A stretch of DNA of 38,116 nucleotides from Oscillospiraceae bacterium (GTDB lineage Bacteria > Bacillota > Clostridia > Oscillospirales > Oscillospiraceae): NCBI GenBank assembly GCA_017410425.1, contig JAFQQV010000071.1:1-38116 (forward strand). Reading direction: 5' to 3'. A model generated the notes under the pieces. The model was not told the DNA's origin and ran no database searches. It saw nothing but the letters and a program-made list of their open reading frames with translations. Each line of letters opens with the position of its first letter. Position 1 is the stretch's first letter. Below are positions 32,348 through 37,937 of the stretch, piece by piece. A program made the position numbers and the translations under genes.

Positions 32348-33178
32348 TTATTCAGTAAAATGTATGTGGTTGTTTATATGTTCGCTGCAGAAGCAGTGGT
32401 AGCCTTCACAGCGGGAGCAGTAACGAAACTCAAGATCAGGATAGTCCACATCGGTCTTGCCGCAGACTGCGCACTTATGATTATAGAGCTTACTCTGCTG
32501 CTCGTATCTGATGCGGGCAGACTCCTTGCGGAAGTTGATGGTGCTCTGGCTCTTTTTCCGGGGCAGAAGAGCCTTCAGGTCATCGCCGCAGAAAATGAAG
32601 AAGTTGAGCAGGGCCACCAGCGGCAGGAGATTTACAGGGAAGGGATTGCCCAGCACGCTGATAACAAAGAACACCGCGTCAACAAGAGCGAGAAACTTCA
32701 TGCGCACAGGGATAATGAACATGAACAGCACCTGCATATCAGGATACATCGCCGCGAAGGAGAAGAACATCGAAAGATAGATGTAGCTGGAATCCAGCAT
32801 CACGCGGGTGTTGAATGCAAAATACATCACAAAGCCGTAAATCACCGTCAGCAAAACACCGGAGAAAAAGAACACGGTGAAGGGACCGCTGCCCCATTCC
32901 CGCTCAAGGATGCTGCCTATCCAGTAATAGAAGTAAAACACCAGCAGCGCCAGAAGACCGGTGTTGGGCGGGAAGAACATGAAGCTGACAATACGCCAGA
33001 CCTGACCGCGCATGATAAGTGCCGGGTCAAAGACAATGTACTGCAGGAACATGGGATTGACCACATTCATCAGCCAGAAGGCCACATTGGCTATGGCCAC
33101 ATATTTCATAAGATTGCTTATGCCAAAGTTGGGGTGATTATAGCAAAAGCGCTCAATTTTATTTCTGAGATTAAACAT
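32348..33178 (-). CDS. Rhomboid-like membrane protein with C-terminal zinc finger
   Basis: 276 residues. About six membrane helices with rhomboid-type order (QVWRIVSFMFFPPNTG, then ILEREWGSGPFTVFFFSGVLL) are followed by a cytoplasmic tail with KCAVCGKTDVDYPD, RYCSRCEGYHCFC and a late His-rich stretch (Cys236, Cys239, Cys254, Cys257, Cys264, His267), a probable zinc ribbon. The rhomboid catalytic GxSG is not visible (Ser130 and Ser131 occur in LDSSYIY), nor is the catalytic His, so protease activity is unlikely. AGGAG lies 8 nt ahead. It is the first gene of a pair with the TPR/hydrolase-like gene. Confidence 0.72.
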   Translation of the reverse strand: MFNLRNKIERFCYNHPNFGISNLMKYVAIANVAFWLMNVVNPMFLQYIVFDPALIMRGQVWRIVSFMFFPPNTGLLALLVFYFYYWIGSILEREWGSGPFTVFFFSGVLLTVIYGFVMYFAFNTRVMLDSSYIYLSMFFSFAAMYPDMQVLFMFIIPVRMKFLALVDAVFFVISVLGNPFPVNLLPLVALLNFFIFCGDDLKALLPRKKSQSTINFRKESARIRYEQQSKLYNHKCAVCGKTDVDYPDLEFRYCSRCEGYHCFCSEHINNHIHFTE

Positions 33179-33330
33179 TGCAAGTCTCCTGAGTTCAATA
33201 TGTGATTATAACTATAGCCTCTATAAAAAATAAAGTCTACAATTTTTTGTAAATTTCCATTAAGGGGCTTTTATATTTTAGAATTGTATGTTAATATGTA
33301 AACCAATAAATTATGCATGGAGTTTTTAAA

Positions 33331-34101
33331 ATGGATAATAACACCATTAATCATAAAGAAGAATACAAAAACGAAATCATTGAGGGCAGAAATGCCGTCA
33401 TCGAGGCTCTGCGCGCGGGCCGCAACATCGACAAGATTTTCATCGCTAAGGGTGATGTGGACAAAACCCTCGGTCACATTGCATCCAAGGCCAGGGACAA
33501 GGGCATTGTAGTAGTAGAGGCTGACCGTCGTAAGTTGGACTTCATGAGTCAGACCAAGGCACATCAGGGCGTTGTGGCTCTGGCTGCCGTACGCGATTAC
33601 TGCGAAATCGCAGACATTATCGCTCTGGCCCGTGAGCGTGAGGAGCATCCCTTTGTCATCGTCTGCGATGAGATCAGCGACCCCCACAATCTGGGTGCCA
33701 TCATCCGTACCGCAGAATGTGTCGGTGCACACGGTGTCATCATCCCCAAGCGCCGCAGCGCCGGCCTTACTACCATTGTGGACAAGGCCTCCGCCGGTGC
33801 AGCAGAACATATGCTCATCTCCAGAGTGCCCAATATCTCCGCTGCGCTCAAGGAGCTGAAGGAGGAAGGTCTCTGGGTTTACGGCACCGCCGCAGATGGC
33901 AATAACGGCCTCTGGAGCACCGATCTTAGCGGCCCCATAGCACTGGTCATCGGTTCCGAGGGCGACGGCATGGGCAGACTGGTCAAGGAGCACTGTGACT
34001 TTATTCTCAGCCTCCCCATGAAGGGCCGCCTCAATTCCCTCAACGCTTCCGCTGCAGCAGCCGTCACCATGTATGAGGTGCTCAGACAGCGCAGCAAATA
34101 A
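33331..34101 (+). CDS. rlmB: 23S rRNA (guanosine-2'-O-)-methyltransferase, TrmH/RlmB family
   Basis: 256 residues. The N-terminal substrate-binding domain opens EIIEGRNAVIEAL and is followed by the SPOUT knot: EISDPHNLGAIIRTAECVGA, ALVIGSEGDGMGRLV and LPMKGRLNSLNASAAAAVTM. These are the three motifs of the RlmB/TrmH group, which methylate a ribose in 23S rRNA. The start at 33331 is preferred to the one at 33313: GGAG lies 8 nt ahead, and relatives begin with a short charged lead. The gap to the following 1018-residue gene is 42 bp with no terminator, so they may share a message. Confidence 0.94.
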   Translation: MDNNTINHKEEYKNEIIEGRNAVIEALRAGRNIDKIFIAKGDVDKTLGHIASKARDKGIVVVEADRRKLDFMSQTKAHQGVVALAAVRDYCEIADIIALAREREEHPFVIVCDEISDPHNLGAIIRTAECVGAHGVIIPKRRSAGLTTIVDKASAGAAEHMLISRVPNISAALKELKEEGLWVYGTAADGNNGLWSTDLSGPIALVIGSEGDGMGRLVKEHCDFILSLPMKGRLNSLNASAAAAVTMYEVLRQRSK

Positions 34102-34143: not shown

Positions 34144-37100
34144 ATGCAGAAAAAATTCATAGATAATGAATATGATGCTCTGGATTTGGATTTGTTGGAC
34201 CTCAAGTTAGACAATATCCTCAATGAATTTAACATTGACCCTGAGTTTAGCCTTGCTCCGGAAGCAGAAGCTGCCGGGGCTTTCGGTGCGTCTGCAGAAG
34301 AGTTTCTGCCTGAGCCGGAGTTTGACTATACTCTGGATGAAGATTACACCGCAGATGATGATTTCTTGGCAGTGGATGAGCTTCCTGAGCTTGATTTTGA
34401 CGAAGCTGCAAGCTTTATCGAAGCTCCTTACTACACCGATGATGTGTATAATGAGTCTGGCTACTACAGCGAAGACTACGCAGAAGCAGACTACGCCGAT
34501 GAGGACGAATATTACGAAGAGCCTGCTGTAAAACACAGCAAGACCAACAGAACCGGCCTCTTCGGATTTTTCCGTTCCCGCCGCCGCGGCAGCAGCGTAA
34601 GCGCCATGGAGGACGAGGCACGAAACATTGCTCAGCGTCTGCGCGAAGAGGAAGACGTGGAAGAGGACAAGCTGCCCGAGCCGGAGCTTGATCTCTACAG
34701 CTACATGGACAGCAAGGCCTACTTTGAAGCTCAGGCCGAAGACTATGACGAGCAGCCGCTTGAAGATGAAGCTTACACAGAAGAGGACTACGAAGAAGTA
34801 GCCGAGGATGTGGAAAGCTACGAGCTTGAAGATGACTTCACCGAGGAATACACCGAGGAAGATTTTGAGCAGGAGTTTTCCGGTCTGCCCGATCTGGACG
34901 ATGATGAGCCCCATTATTACGAAGAGCCCGAAGAATACTACCACGAGAGTGGTAACTACGAATACGGCGTGGACATGGGCTCTGAGCCGGATTACGAGGA
35001 ATACGAAGAGGATAAGCACCGCAGTGTTTATACTCCCGGCGGCGACGATGCCATAGAGATCGACAGCCGCTTCAATCTCAGCGGCCGCAAGAAAAAGGGC
35101 CGCATGGTCTACGGCAGTTCCGCCGTTGACCTGAGCGCTGACGAAAGCTACGAACACACTCAGCAGAGCGAATATGCCCCCACCCAGTGGACTCCGGATT
35201 ACGATGATCCCGTTACCAATACCGGCGAAGTCATAGAGCCTGAGCGCAAAAAGCATAAGTTCGTCTTCGGCAAAAAGAAGAACAAGAAAAAAGCTGCAGA
35301 GCGCGTAGCCTATGATCCCTACGGCGGTACTGCTCCGGCAGACGGCGAAAAGCTGGAGAGCTTTGACGATCTTGACGCCGCCCCATCCGATTATGCTGAG
35401 GCCGGCGAATACGGCGAGGGCAAGCGCTATGAAGAGGAGGAAATGTACTTCCCTCCCACCTTCAGGGAATACGTGCTGAGCATTTTTGCCTCCATGTTCC
35501 TGCGCATCCGCGGCACTGTCCGCGGTGACACCGTCGGCACCATGGACGACACTGAGGAAGATCTGGGCCCCGAGCTCAGCCCCGCCGCTGCCAGCAAGTA
35601 CTATGGTTCCTTTGTAAAGACCCTGAAGTTGCGCCTGCGCATTGCAGCGGTACTGCTGTTCGTGCTGTGCTACGTCTCCCTCGAGCTGCCTGTTCCCGGT
35701 ATGCTCAAGTATCTGCCTGTGGCTGCAGCCTTCTGCTTTGCACTGCAGTCTGCCATCATGCTGATGGCGCTGGATGTTGTCACCACCGGTGTGCTCAACG
35801 CATTCCGCCTCAAGATAGGCGCAGACAGCCTTGCTGTACTGGCCTGCATTATAACAGGTCTGGACGCCGCAGTTGTGGCCCTGTCCAAAACCGCATCCCT
35901 GCACATGCCCCTTTGCGCCATCTCCTCTTTCTCCATGGTCGGTCTGCTGCTGGCAGCCTTCCTCAATGCAAGAGGTCTGCGCAAGAGCCTGCGCGTGCCT
36001 GCCATCGGCAAGCGCTTCTACGCTGTCACCGGCGAGCTTAAGCTGAAGGCCAAGGAGCTGACCCTGCTCAAGTCCCTGCGTTCCTACTCCGGCTTTGTAC
36101 GCCGCAGTGAGGAAGCAGCCCCCGACGAGACCGCTTTCATCAAGCTGGGCCCCGTCATCATTGTGCTCTCCCTGCTGCTTGCCATTATCACCGCCGCAGT
36201 TAAAAAGAGCTTTCCTGACCTTATCTACATATACTCTGCAATACTCTGCGCCGCGGTTCCCTTCACCGCGCTTATCTCCTACACCCTGCCCTTCTTCCTG
36301 GGCGCCACCCGTATCTTCAAGTACGGCGCTGCCATTGCGGGCTGGTCCGGCCTTTGTGACATCGGCACAAGCCGCAACATCATTGTCACTGACCGCGATC
36401 TCTTCCCCGAAAGCGCCATCACCATGGAGAGCGTGCGCATCTTCGCCGATGAGGATGCAAGTAAGGTTATCTCCTACGCAGGCTCCATGATGCAGGCCTC
36501 CGGCTCCTGCTCCGCAGCATGCTTTATTGAGCTGATGGAAGAAAACTACTGCGAGATGAAGCAGGTGGACGGACTGGAATTTCTGCCCGGCGGCGGCATG
36601 ACCGGCGTCATTGAGGGCCACAAGGTCCTCTGCGGCAGCACCGAGCTTATGCGCCTTATGAATGTGCGCATTCCCTACAAGCTCACCGACAAGACCACCG
36701 TGCTGCTGGCTATTGACGGCATACTCTACGGCATATTCTCGCTGTATTATGAGCCTCTGCCCCAGGTGCGCCGCGCCCTGGTTGATCTGGTGCGTTCTTC
36801 CCGGCACCCTGTTTTCGCAGTGCGTGATTTCAACATCAACCCCGAGATGCTGCACAACACCTTTGACATTTCCACCGATGGCTACGACTTCCCGCCCTAC
36901 ACCGAGAGGCTGGAGCTGTCCACCCCCACCGATGACAAGAAGACCCGCAACATTGCCGCCATCATTTGCAATGAGGGTCTGGGCCCCCTGACATCCGTTG
37001 CCGATGTGGGCCGCAGAATGTACGTCTCTGCCCGAAACAATGTGCTGATAAACGTCATTGCTGCAGTATTCGGTATGTTCTTCGTGTTCTTTAAACTCAT

Positions 37101-37200
37101 AACAGTAGGCAGCCTGCCCCTTGGCGCACTGCTGGTATTCATGCTCTTTGCATCCTTGCCGGTCATTCTGGTGAGCCTGTACGTAAACATCAAAAGCTAA
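34144..37200 (+). CDS. Degenerate P1B-type ATPase-like membrane protein with long acidic N-terminus
   Basis: 1018 residues, unnamed. Residues 1-430 are very acidic and tyrosine-rich, with basic patches near 135-150 (GLFGFFRSRRRG), 312-322 (GRKKKGRMVYGS) and 366-385 (KHKFVFGKKKNKKK). Then follow eight membrane helices: about 500-515, 523-550, 562-582, 588-609, 669-687, 693-720, 966-986 and 991-1016. The order is that of heavy-metal P1B-ATPases, with a nucleotide-like domain at 740-965 (GGGMTGVIEGHKVLCG matches the GxG loop). But DKTGT is D750-R-D-L-F754, the CPC motif is AVPF (704-707), TGD is VRD (D895) and GDGxND is CNEGLG. Catalysis is therefore very unlikely; a pseudoenzyme. AGGAG is ahead of the ATG. 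Possibly co-transcribed with rlmB. Confidence 0.8.
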   Translation: MQKKFIDNEYDALDLDLLDLKLDNILNEFNIDPEFSLAPEAEAAGAFGASAEEFLPEPEFDYTLDEDYTADDDFLAVDELPELDFDEAASFIEAPYYTDDVYNESGYYSEDYAEADYADEDEYYEEPAVKHSKTNRTGLFGFFRSRRRGSSVSAMEDEARNIAQRLREEEDVEEDKLPEPELDLYSYMDSKAYFEAQAEDYDEQPLEDEAYTEEDYEEVAEDVESYELEDDFTEEYTEEDFEQEFSGLPDLDDDEPHYYEEPEEYYHESGNYEYGVDMGSEPDYEEYEEDKHRSVYTPGGDDAIEIDSRFNLSGRKKKGRMVYGSSAVDLSADESYEHTQQSEYAPTQWTPDYDDPVTNTGEVIEPERKKHKFVFGKKKNKKKAAERVAYDPYGGTAPADGEKLESFDDLDAAPSDYAEAGEYGEGKRYEEEEMYFPPTFREYVLSIFASMFLRIRGTVRGDTVGTMDDTEEDLGPELSPAAASKYYGSFVKTLKLRLRIAAVLLFVLCYVSLELPVPGMLKYLPVAAAFCFALQSAIMLMALDVVTTGVLNAFRLKIGADSLAVLACIITGLDAAVVALSKTASLHMPLCAISSFSMVGLLLAAFLNARGLRKSLRVPAIGKRFYAVTGELKLKAKELTLLKSLRSYSGFVRRSEEAAPDETAFIKLGPVIIVLSLLLAIITAAVKKSFPDLIYIYSAILCAAVPFTALISYTLPFFLGATRIFKYGAAIAGWSGLCDIGTSRNIIVTDRDLFPESAITMESVRIFADEDASKVISYAGSMMQASGSCSAACFIELMEENYCEMKQVDGLEFLPGGGMTGVIEGHKVLCGSTELMRLMNVRIPYKLTDKTTVLLAIDGILYGIFSLYYEPLPQVRRALVDLVRSSRHPVFAVRDFNINPEMLHNTFDISTDGYDFPPYTERLELSTPTDDKKTRNIAAIICNEGLGPLTSVADVGRRMYVSARNNVLINVIAAVFGMFFVFFKLITVGSLPLGALLVFMLFASLPVILVSLYVNIKS

Positions 37201-37203
37201 TCA

Positions 37204-37232
37204 AAAAAGACGCAGCGCTGCTGCGTCTTTTT
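37204..37232 (+). terminator. Intrinsic terminator of the pseudo-ATPase gene
   Basis: A 13-bp perfect stem (37204-37216 with 37220-37232) and 3-nt GCT loop, 3 bp after the stop, with TTTTTCTT tail. Confidence 0.95.
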
Positions 37233-37248
37233 CTTAATCAATTCTTAA

Positions 37249-37277: not shown

Positions 37278-37298
37278 ATAGCGGAAAGGAGGATGAAT

Positions 37299-37937
37299 AT
37301 GAAAACCAACAAACACAGCTTCAGTTATCTTTGTTTTATATTTATTTTCGCATTCCTGCATTTTCATCTGGAGAGACTTAATGTTATCCTGAGCTTTGTT
37401 TTTCTTTGCGCATGTGCTTTTCTGGCTGCAAACTATACCGGATATTCCAAAGCATACAAAAAGCCCCTGAACCTTGCAATCATAATCATTTCAAGCTTTC
37501 TTTTTGCCTGCGCCCTGCCATTTGTGGAAAGGTTTATTTTCAGCCTCTGCCGTACAGGGGATTTCAGAATACAGGCCTTTGCTTCAATTCCCGCACTTGT
37601 ATTGTGCGTTATCGCTTCTTTGATTTTATGTAAACTATTTTATTTTGGTCATAAAATAGTTTTCCCTCGCTGGGCTTTTCTTGTTCTCTGTTTTATACCG
37701 CCCTTTGTCTATATGATTCTGGGCATCTTTCTTTCGCTTATCGATGTTTCTGCATTGGAGCTGGCGCTCAATAACTTCACCACCATATACAGCGGTAAAA
37801 TTGTGCTGCTGTATAACTTTGAGCTTTACCCGCCTATGAGAGACATCAGCATCGGCTGGAGCGTTTTCTGCATGATGAAATACAACCAGAGCATGAAAAT
37901 CAAAAAGCTGCTGGAGATGCAGGCCGGTTTATTATGA
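37299..37937 (+). CDS. Hypothetical integral membrane protein
   Basis: 212 residues, not recognised. About five to six hydrophobic segments run through most of the protein (SYLCFIFIFAFLHF, VILSFVFLCACAFLAA, LAIIIISSFLFACALPF, ALVLCVIASLILCKLF and WAFLVLCFIPPFVYMILGIF), followed by a short C-terminus ending YNQSMKIKKLLEMQAGLL. No motif suggests a function. AAAGGAGG 37285-37292 is 6 nt ahead of ATG 37299; the ATG at 37293 overlaps the ribosome site and is rejected. Base composition is more AT-rich than most neighbours, and it has its own promoter. Confidence 0.7.
   Translation: MKTNKHSFSYLCFIFIFAFLHFHLERLNVILSFVFLCACAFLAANYTGYSKAYKKPLNLAIIIISSFLFACALPFVERFIFSLCRTGDFRIQAFASIPALVLCVIASLILCKLFYFGHKIVFPRWAFLVLCFIPPFVYMILGIFLSLIDVSALELALNNFTTIYSGKIVLLYNFELYPPMRDISIGWSVFCMMKYNQSMKIKKLLEMQAGLL

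Follow-up and report, generated by a model that had tools for sequence, protein, structure and literature searches.

A conserved P1B-ATPase-like protein of Oscillospirales that has lost its catalytic motifs: a candidate membrane scaffold or regulator

P-type ATPases are a textbook pump family, and the heavy-metal (P1B) ATPases among them, such as CopA, CopB and ZntA (NCBIfam TIGR01525), share with the protein described here an eight-helix membrane core, a cytosolic head, the N-domain fold and a 4+2+2 order of helices. The protein differs from these pumps in lacking the TGES half of the actuator (A) domain and the DKTGT, CPC, GDGxND and HP motifs, and where many of them carry an HMA domain it has an acidic tail with no Pfam match. 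KdpB, a P1A ATPase, gives the next-best fold matches, weaker than those to P1B, and is an active pump subunit, in contrast to the predicted loss of pumping in our protein. A degenerate relative of another branch is known from Plasmodium, where guanylate cyclase beta is reported (PMC6592433) to contain a P4-ATPase domain in which most signature residues are not identifiable. A search of the open literature yielded no stand-alone bacterial pseudo-P-type ATPase. We describe such a protein, hereafter the pseudo-ATPase, from a stretch of 38,116 nucleotides of an Oscillospiraceae bacterium (GCA_017410425.1, contig JAFQQV010000071.1), all of which was analysed and which we call the window. The gene, its parts and its nearest surroundings are these:

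33313..34101, plus strand: rlmB, 23S rRNA Gm2251 methyltransferase (TIGR00186, 1.7e-70, above cut-off), 42 bp upstream of the pseudo-ATPase
34144..37200, plus strand: pseudo-ATPase, P1B-type, 1018 aa, ATG start
34144..35595, plus strand: acidic N-terminal tail, about residues 1-484, rich in Glu, Asp and Tyr by composition
34207..34230, plus strand: tail motif LDNILNEF, residues 22-29, of the [FY]x(L/V)DDILxE[FY] kind
35608..35979, plus strand: TM1-TM4 region, residues 489-612 (hydropathy, model helices, profile alignment)
35980..36120, plus strand: actuator-domain stub, residues 613-659, TGES half deleted, 63 template columns absent
36121..36309, plus strand: TM5-TM6, residues 660-722 (hydropathy), AVPF at the CPC place, P706 kept
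36391..36408, plus strand: DRDLFP, residues 750-755, new conserved motif at the DKTGT-loop place
36415..36750, plus strand: N-domain, residues 758-869, GxG glycine retained, HP gone
36823..36843, plus strand: RDFNINP, residues 894-900, at the TGDN place (D895 in 83/84, N897 in 76/84 relatives)
37024..37197, plus strand: TM7-TM8, residues 961-1018 (hydropathy, model helices)
37203..37233, no strand assigned: 14-pair hairpin immediately 3' of the pseudo-ATPase stop codon (terminator scan)

The preliminary description of this DNA, made from its letters, had proposed an intact frame of 1018 codons and hydrophobic segments in 4+2+2 order, and both hold: the frame is open from the ATG at 34144 to 37200, and the segments are recovered by hydropathy and as helices of a structure model. 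The window's pseudo-ATPase has no Pfam match at E<=10. Its tail is 16.9% Glu, 12.4% Asp and 8.3% Tyr, and would lie in the cytosol if the protein has P1B topology. In the terminator scan the hairpin is terminator-like on the minus strand only, and it is possible that it is used on the plus strand as the end of the pseudo-ATPase transcript. Divergent from rlmB lies a Rhomboid/Der1-like membrane protein with weak Pfam and NCBIfam matches (32348-33178, minus strand), and past the hairpin there is a 214-aa ORF with hydrophobic stretches (37293-37937, plus strand) for which searches of Pfam and NCBIfam at E<=10 and of PADLOC at E<=1 gave no match.

Across its membrane-plus-head region the pseudo-ATPase is homologous to P1B ATPases. 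A profile-profile alignment (hhalign) covers this whole region with a Prob of 99.92 and E 2.8e-35 over 536 columns, TIGR01525 finds the window protein at E 1.6e-9 (37.2 bits, far below its cut-off of 346.25), seven of eight distant relatives match a P1B model at E<=5e-4, and every one of the 24 PDB fold matches at E<=0.001 is a P1B ATPase, all of which bears out the earlier view that the resemblance is beyond chance. The N-domain fold of a P1B-type ATPase is present, the predicted domain superposing on that of CopB at 2.3 A over 111 residues. The two structure models, each built from a ten-sequence alignment, have mean pLDDT of 52 and 58 and are weak outside the N-domain, so that the P-domain is not established by them; structure prediction does recover a P-type fold, where its failure to do so had been named as evidence against the idea.

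What has been lost from this fold is clearest from its relatives. We scanned 84 of them, the distinct ones among 120 full-length matches of 140, a set drawn from the retrieved loci alone and leaning to the window's genus. The strings DKTG, CP[CH], TGDN and GDGxND are found in none of these 84 distinct full-length proteins. [ST]PC occurs in four, three times in the N-domain and once in the last helix and never at the CPx position, and TGE[ST] in six, within the stub ahead of the TGES position. Proteins that do bear DKTGT or CPC are separate, genuine P1B pumps, two of which are encoded elsewhere in the window's genome; none of the 84 relatives keeps either motif, which speaks against a recent wreck among intact siblings and, together with the recovered fold, supports the pseudo-ATPase reading. 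The profile alignment has a 63-column deletion where the TGES half of the actuator domain should be, confirming the suspicion that this domain is short, and another, of 32 columns, that takes in the GDGxND segment; CPC is replaced by AVPF, DKTGT by TDRDL and TGDN by VRDFN, and the HP pair is gone. The motif-by-motif reading of the preliminary description thus stands for CPC as AVPF and TGD as VRD, but its equation of GDGxND with CNEGLG does not, as CNEGLG aligns after the 32-column deletion, and much of the loss is deletion rather than substitution. Its VADVGRRM, offered as a match following the hinge, aligns instead with the stretch preceding TM7 and not with ADVGIAM. Similarly, the claim that every catalytic motif is lost is right for the motif strings but too strong for single residues: the CPx proline P706 is retained in 76 of the 84 relatives, the TGD-loop Asp D895 in 83 (with N897 in 76), and D750, whose place is that of the phosphorylated Asp or the one beside it, in 72, being absent in 12. 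In the gapless profile alignment the catalytic Asp is matched by T749 rather than D750, which leaves a one-residue uncertainty in the register at this point.

The family also has signatures of its own. DxDLFPxG and RDFNIT occupy the places of DKTGT and TGDN, with D752 in 70/84 (and Glu in 11 more), F754 in 74/84 and P755 in 75/84, and G818 (83/84), G831 (84/84) and Y869 (83/84) are nearly or fully invariant across the same 84 relatives. Such fixed signatures indicate a head that has been rewritten, not a random wreck. Because the parts that phosphorylate, dephosphorylate and hinge are missing, P-type pumping is not expected, and the pseudo-ATPase should not run the P-type cycle.

Nor is this a local curiosity of one genome. 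A best match at E<=1e-46 is present in 276 of 295 sampled genomes of the order, Oscillospirales, spanning 24 of its 26 families, and 219 of the 225 good genomes have a strong match; for the matches listed in this order-wide search, full length is seen. Within the window's genus, the first relatives search had given a strong match in 29 of 37 genomes. In a sample of 245 genomes of the class, the nine that belong to the order all match at 3e-87 or better, and none of the 236 outside it exceeds 5.8e-38; among the matches listed outside the order, cover is partial (about columns 145-490), as genuine pumps would give. The 13 further genomes of the 295 that lack a strong match are all less complete; two of them (G061, G069) have no rlmB match, and one (G040) is cut. 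A FastTree phylogeny puts a single branch between the 84 members and 29 genuine pumps, with support of 100 in the group table and 94 as printed after re-rooting; the tree comes with several long-branch warnings, one of which names L043 with the pumps. Some families hold highly divergent copies on long branches (L043, L036, L038, L047, L050).

Our alignment of cores comprises 46 of 49 (L028, L029 and L049 were omitted as short, and L044 was excluded as a genuine pump). Selection was estimated on the core. The six distinct close pairs, with dN up to 0.11, have NG86 dN/dS values of 0.045, 0.089, 0.149, 0.162, 0.168 and 0.195, while the 405 usable of 435 pairs have a median of 0.39 and reach at most 0.83; we think that the high values in distant pairs come from a putative underestimate of dS, and we give those pairs no weight. 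The dN/dS comparison that had been suggested therefore gives low ratios in the six close pairs and ratios up to 0.83 in distant ones. Broken copies do occur: G057 and G312, among the matches listed, each have one in-frame TGA, and the copy in G016 is split over two frames. The earlier statement that this is a kept protein and not a decaying gene agrees with its presence in 276 of 295 genomes, its fixed new motifs and the low close-pair ratios. Distribution, dN/dS and motif counts together give one mark of a pseudoenzyme, catalytic residues lost from a gene under selection, and this one would be a pseudoenzyme of the P-type family, unusual in its near-universal conservation across an order. From these sequence comparisons we consider it fairly probable that it is a conserved pseudo-P1B-ATPase that acts as a non-pumping, membrane-anchored scaffold or regulator. 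Early in the order, as the sequences show, a heavy-metal pump lost the GDGxND segment together with the dephosphorylating half of its actuator, and the catalytic loops were rewritten into the new fixed motifs. By the P-type mechanism, the protein should be unable to cycle through autophosphorylation; what remains of it is a long acidic tail carrying the short motif, an eight-helix body in the membrane and, in the cytosol, a head that includes an N-domain.

The upstream neighbour of the gene is nearly fixed as well. In all 40 loci chosen by the pseudo-ATPase, from 18 families, rlmB lies directly upstream on the same strand, at a spacing of -4 to +69 bp in 35 loci; in the remaining five the differing distance probably reflects which start codon was chosen. 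The arrangement also appears when rlmB is sought first: rlmB is present at E<=1e-40 in 57 of 59 genomes of Oscillospirales, and in 52 of these 57 a pseudo-ATPase core lies directly downstream on the same contig and strand (44 found by comparing positions and eight by reading the DNA). In two of the remaining genomes (G063, G091) the contig breaks within the tail ORF, and in two (G040, G084) it ends too early after rlmB to tell, leaving G037 as the one clear exception, in which the pseudo-ATPase is on another contig than rlmB, behind other genes. ORFs upstream of it there look, by eye, like dnaX and recR. When all neighbours in the 40 loci are compared by one method, rlmB and the pseudo-ATPase both score 40/40, the best other upstream family is rhomboid-like, beside rlmB on the opposite strand (9/40), and the best other downstream family is EF-G-like, named by eye (14/40); a control by BLAST clusters, which split divergent families, gives at most 3/40 upstream and 11/40 downstream. 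As gene order, then, the link to rlmB is firm, with one exception, and it may be only co-transcription.

Could the two genes instead form one functional unit, with the pseudo-ATPase as a translation-linked factor that anchors RlmB or pre-ribosomes at the membrane? The adjacency in 40/40 loci and 52/57 genomes is what one would expect of such a unit, as is the EF-G-like gene (by eye) just downstream in 14/40. We checked 14 genomes without a full copy, six good ones of the order and eight of the genus, and rlmB likewise went undetected in 11, which fits joint loss but may also be an assembly gap, because the two genes adjoin; in the other three the contig stops shortly past rlmB, inside an ORF at whose beginning stands the tail motif, in its usual or a variant form. 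RlmB of other bacteria, however, works with no pseudo-ATPase, the single long frame that we read (L085) holds no fusion, and the two genes are apart in G037, so that we regard this explanation as unlikely. An apparent rlmB/pseudo-ATPase fusion in L085 was rejected, its extra length being rlmB read out of frame.

The acidic tail offers a second lead. The pattern [FY]x(L/V)DDILxE[FY] is present in the tails of 55 of 82 relatives, where 200 shuffles give 1.1 on average and never more than 4, although the expression was written after the motif had been seen and some tails are cut by the end of the locus. A looser, terminal form picks out 20 ORFs among all ORFs of the 40 loci, and all 20 are pseudo-ATPases. 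Searched as a DNA pattern in 41 genomes of the genus, the motif has 71 places, against 3 for the reversed pattern. We read 66 instances, from part of these 71 places, and grouped them by BLAST cluster. The C-terminus of signal peptidase II accounts for 27 (LspA; three are fragments assigned by their ending, and Pfam Peptidase_A8 was confirmed on one), the pseudo-ATPase for 12 and the N-terminus of an NAGPA-type protein for 10 (PF09992 confirmed on one); two are VanW-like (by eye), two are small single-helix proteins and 13 are other places. LspA of the window's genome (L218:1498-2592) and of the genus has a long C-terminal tail ending in FxLDDILxEF, which in nearly all copies stops one residue short of the stop codon. 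Another protein encoded in the window's genome (L211:1384-3021), with a single helix and an NAGPA domain, has this motif close to the N-terminus, and small single-helix proteins and others that look VanW-like by eye (L252, L259, L263 and L266) bear it within the first 16 residues. Outside the order, 115 genomes contain the pattern 79 times against 24 reversed, so part of its abundance is background, and a narrower form has 25 places in 23 of 197 genomes of the order, most of them pseudo-ATPase tails and several chance places in other frames. No paper containing the motif strings was found in the open literature. Mimicry of the FtsZ tail by DDILxEF was considered and is not supported: in the window's genome 70 of 627 C-termini score at least as well as the FtsZ tail, and over nine genomes the ranks of FtsZ tails by motif-matrix score run from a best of 9/627 to a worst of 507/627.

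By their usual topology we take the motif-bearing ends of LspA and of the NAGPA-type, VanW-like and other such proteins to face the cytosol, which suggests a single docking partner common to these proteins. The near-fixed rlmB neighbour and a tail motif that recurs on envelope proteins would lead toward the scaffold, sensor or regulator role named in the preliminary description. On the scaffold or regulator reading, the tail motif would dock a cytosolic partner to which LspA and further envelope proteins of the genus dock as well, the head, through DxDLFP, GxG and RDFNIT, would bind a ligand or a protein rather than turn over ATP, and the supply of the pseudo-ATPase would be tied to ribosome maturation through co-expression with rlmB. 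We speculate further, and with considerable doubt, that it might be the membrane hub of an undescribed organising system of Oscillospirales, in which the rebuilt head senses a small ligand, the tail gathers envelope enzymes and supply is set via rlmB. Here a common cytosolic partner would serve LspA, which acts in lipoprotein maturation, and the NAGPA-type and VanW-type proteins alike.

Two other functions would draw on the residues and helices that survive. The conserved D750, D752 and D895 leave room for other chemistry, and the head might be a rewired enzyme, a HAD-type P-domain with a nucleophile Asp in DxD, now serving as a phosphatase, as a phosphotransferase or as a hydrolase of another kind. 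HAD enzymes usually have DxD as their first motif, and in most of the 84 relatives a DxD lies at about the HAD nucleophile position, where the register is uncertain by one residue; the Asp residues are widely conserved (D750 72/84, D752 70/84, D895 83/84). The pseudo-ATPase differs from HAD phosphatases, however, in that the equivalent of motif IV, the acidic Mg2+ site at GDGxND, is deleted; D750 is missing in 12/84, and the profile register places T749 on the nucleophile. An enzyme of this kind seems to us unlikely too, if anything a little more so than a translation-linked factor. The other function is that of a passive channel or facilitator, whose eight helices conduct or bind an ion with no ATP drive. 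All eight helices are indeed retained, and P706 persists in 76/84, but the CPx metal site of the sixth helix is absent (AVPF in the window protein, CP[CH] in 0/84 and [ST]PC never at the CPx position) and the tail, having no Pfam match, shows no HMA domain, which makes a conduit improbable. A decaying pump gene, which lost catalytic motifs and a few broken copies might have brought to mind, is scarcely credible for a gene that is conserved across the order, has new motifs that are fixed and shows low dN/dS between close relatives, and we reject it as the general case while accepting that single copies are broken.

If the scaffold or regulator reading is true, a P-type fold can turn into a pure regulator or scaffold in bacteria. 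The pseudo-ATPase is near-universal in its order, yet the window protein goes unmatched in Pfam, and the motif that its tail shares with other proteins is a direct experimental handle. The nearest precedent that we found comes from Plasmodium: in the degenerate P4-ATPase domain of its guanylate cyclase beta (PMC6592433), as in the pseudo-ATPase, a P-type ATPase fold is reported although most signature residues are not identifiable. That domain is eukaryotic, of the P4 type and fused to a cyclase, whereas the pseudo-ATPase is bacterial, stands alone, derives from P1B ATPases and has undergone large deletions and acquired new fixed motifs.
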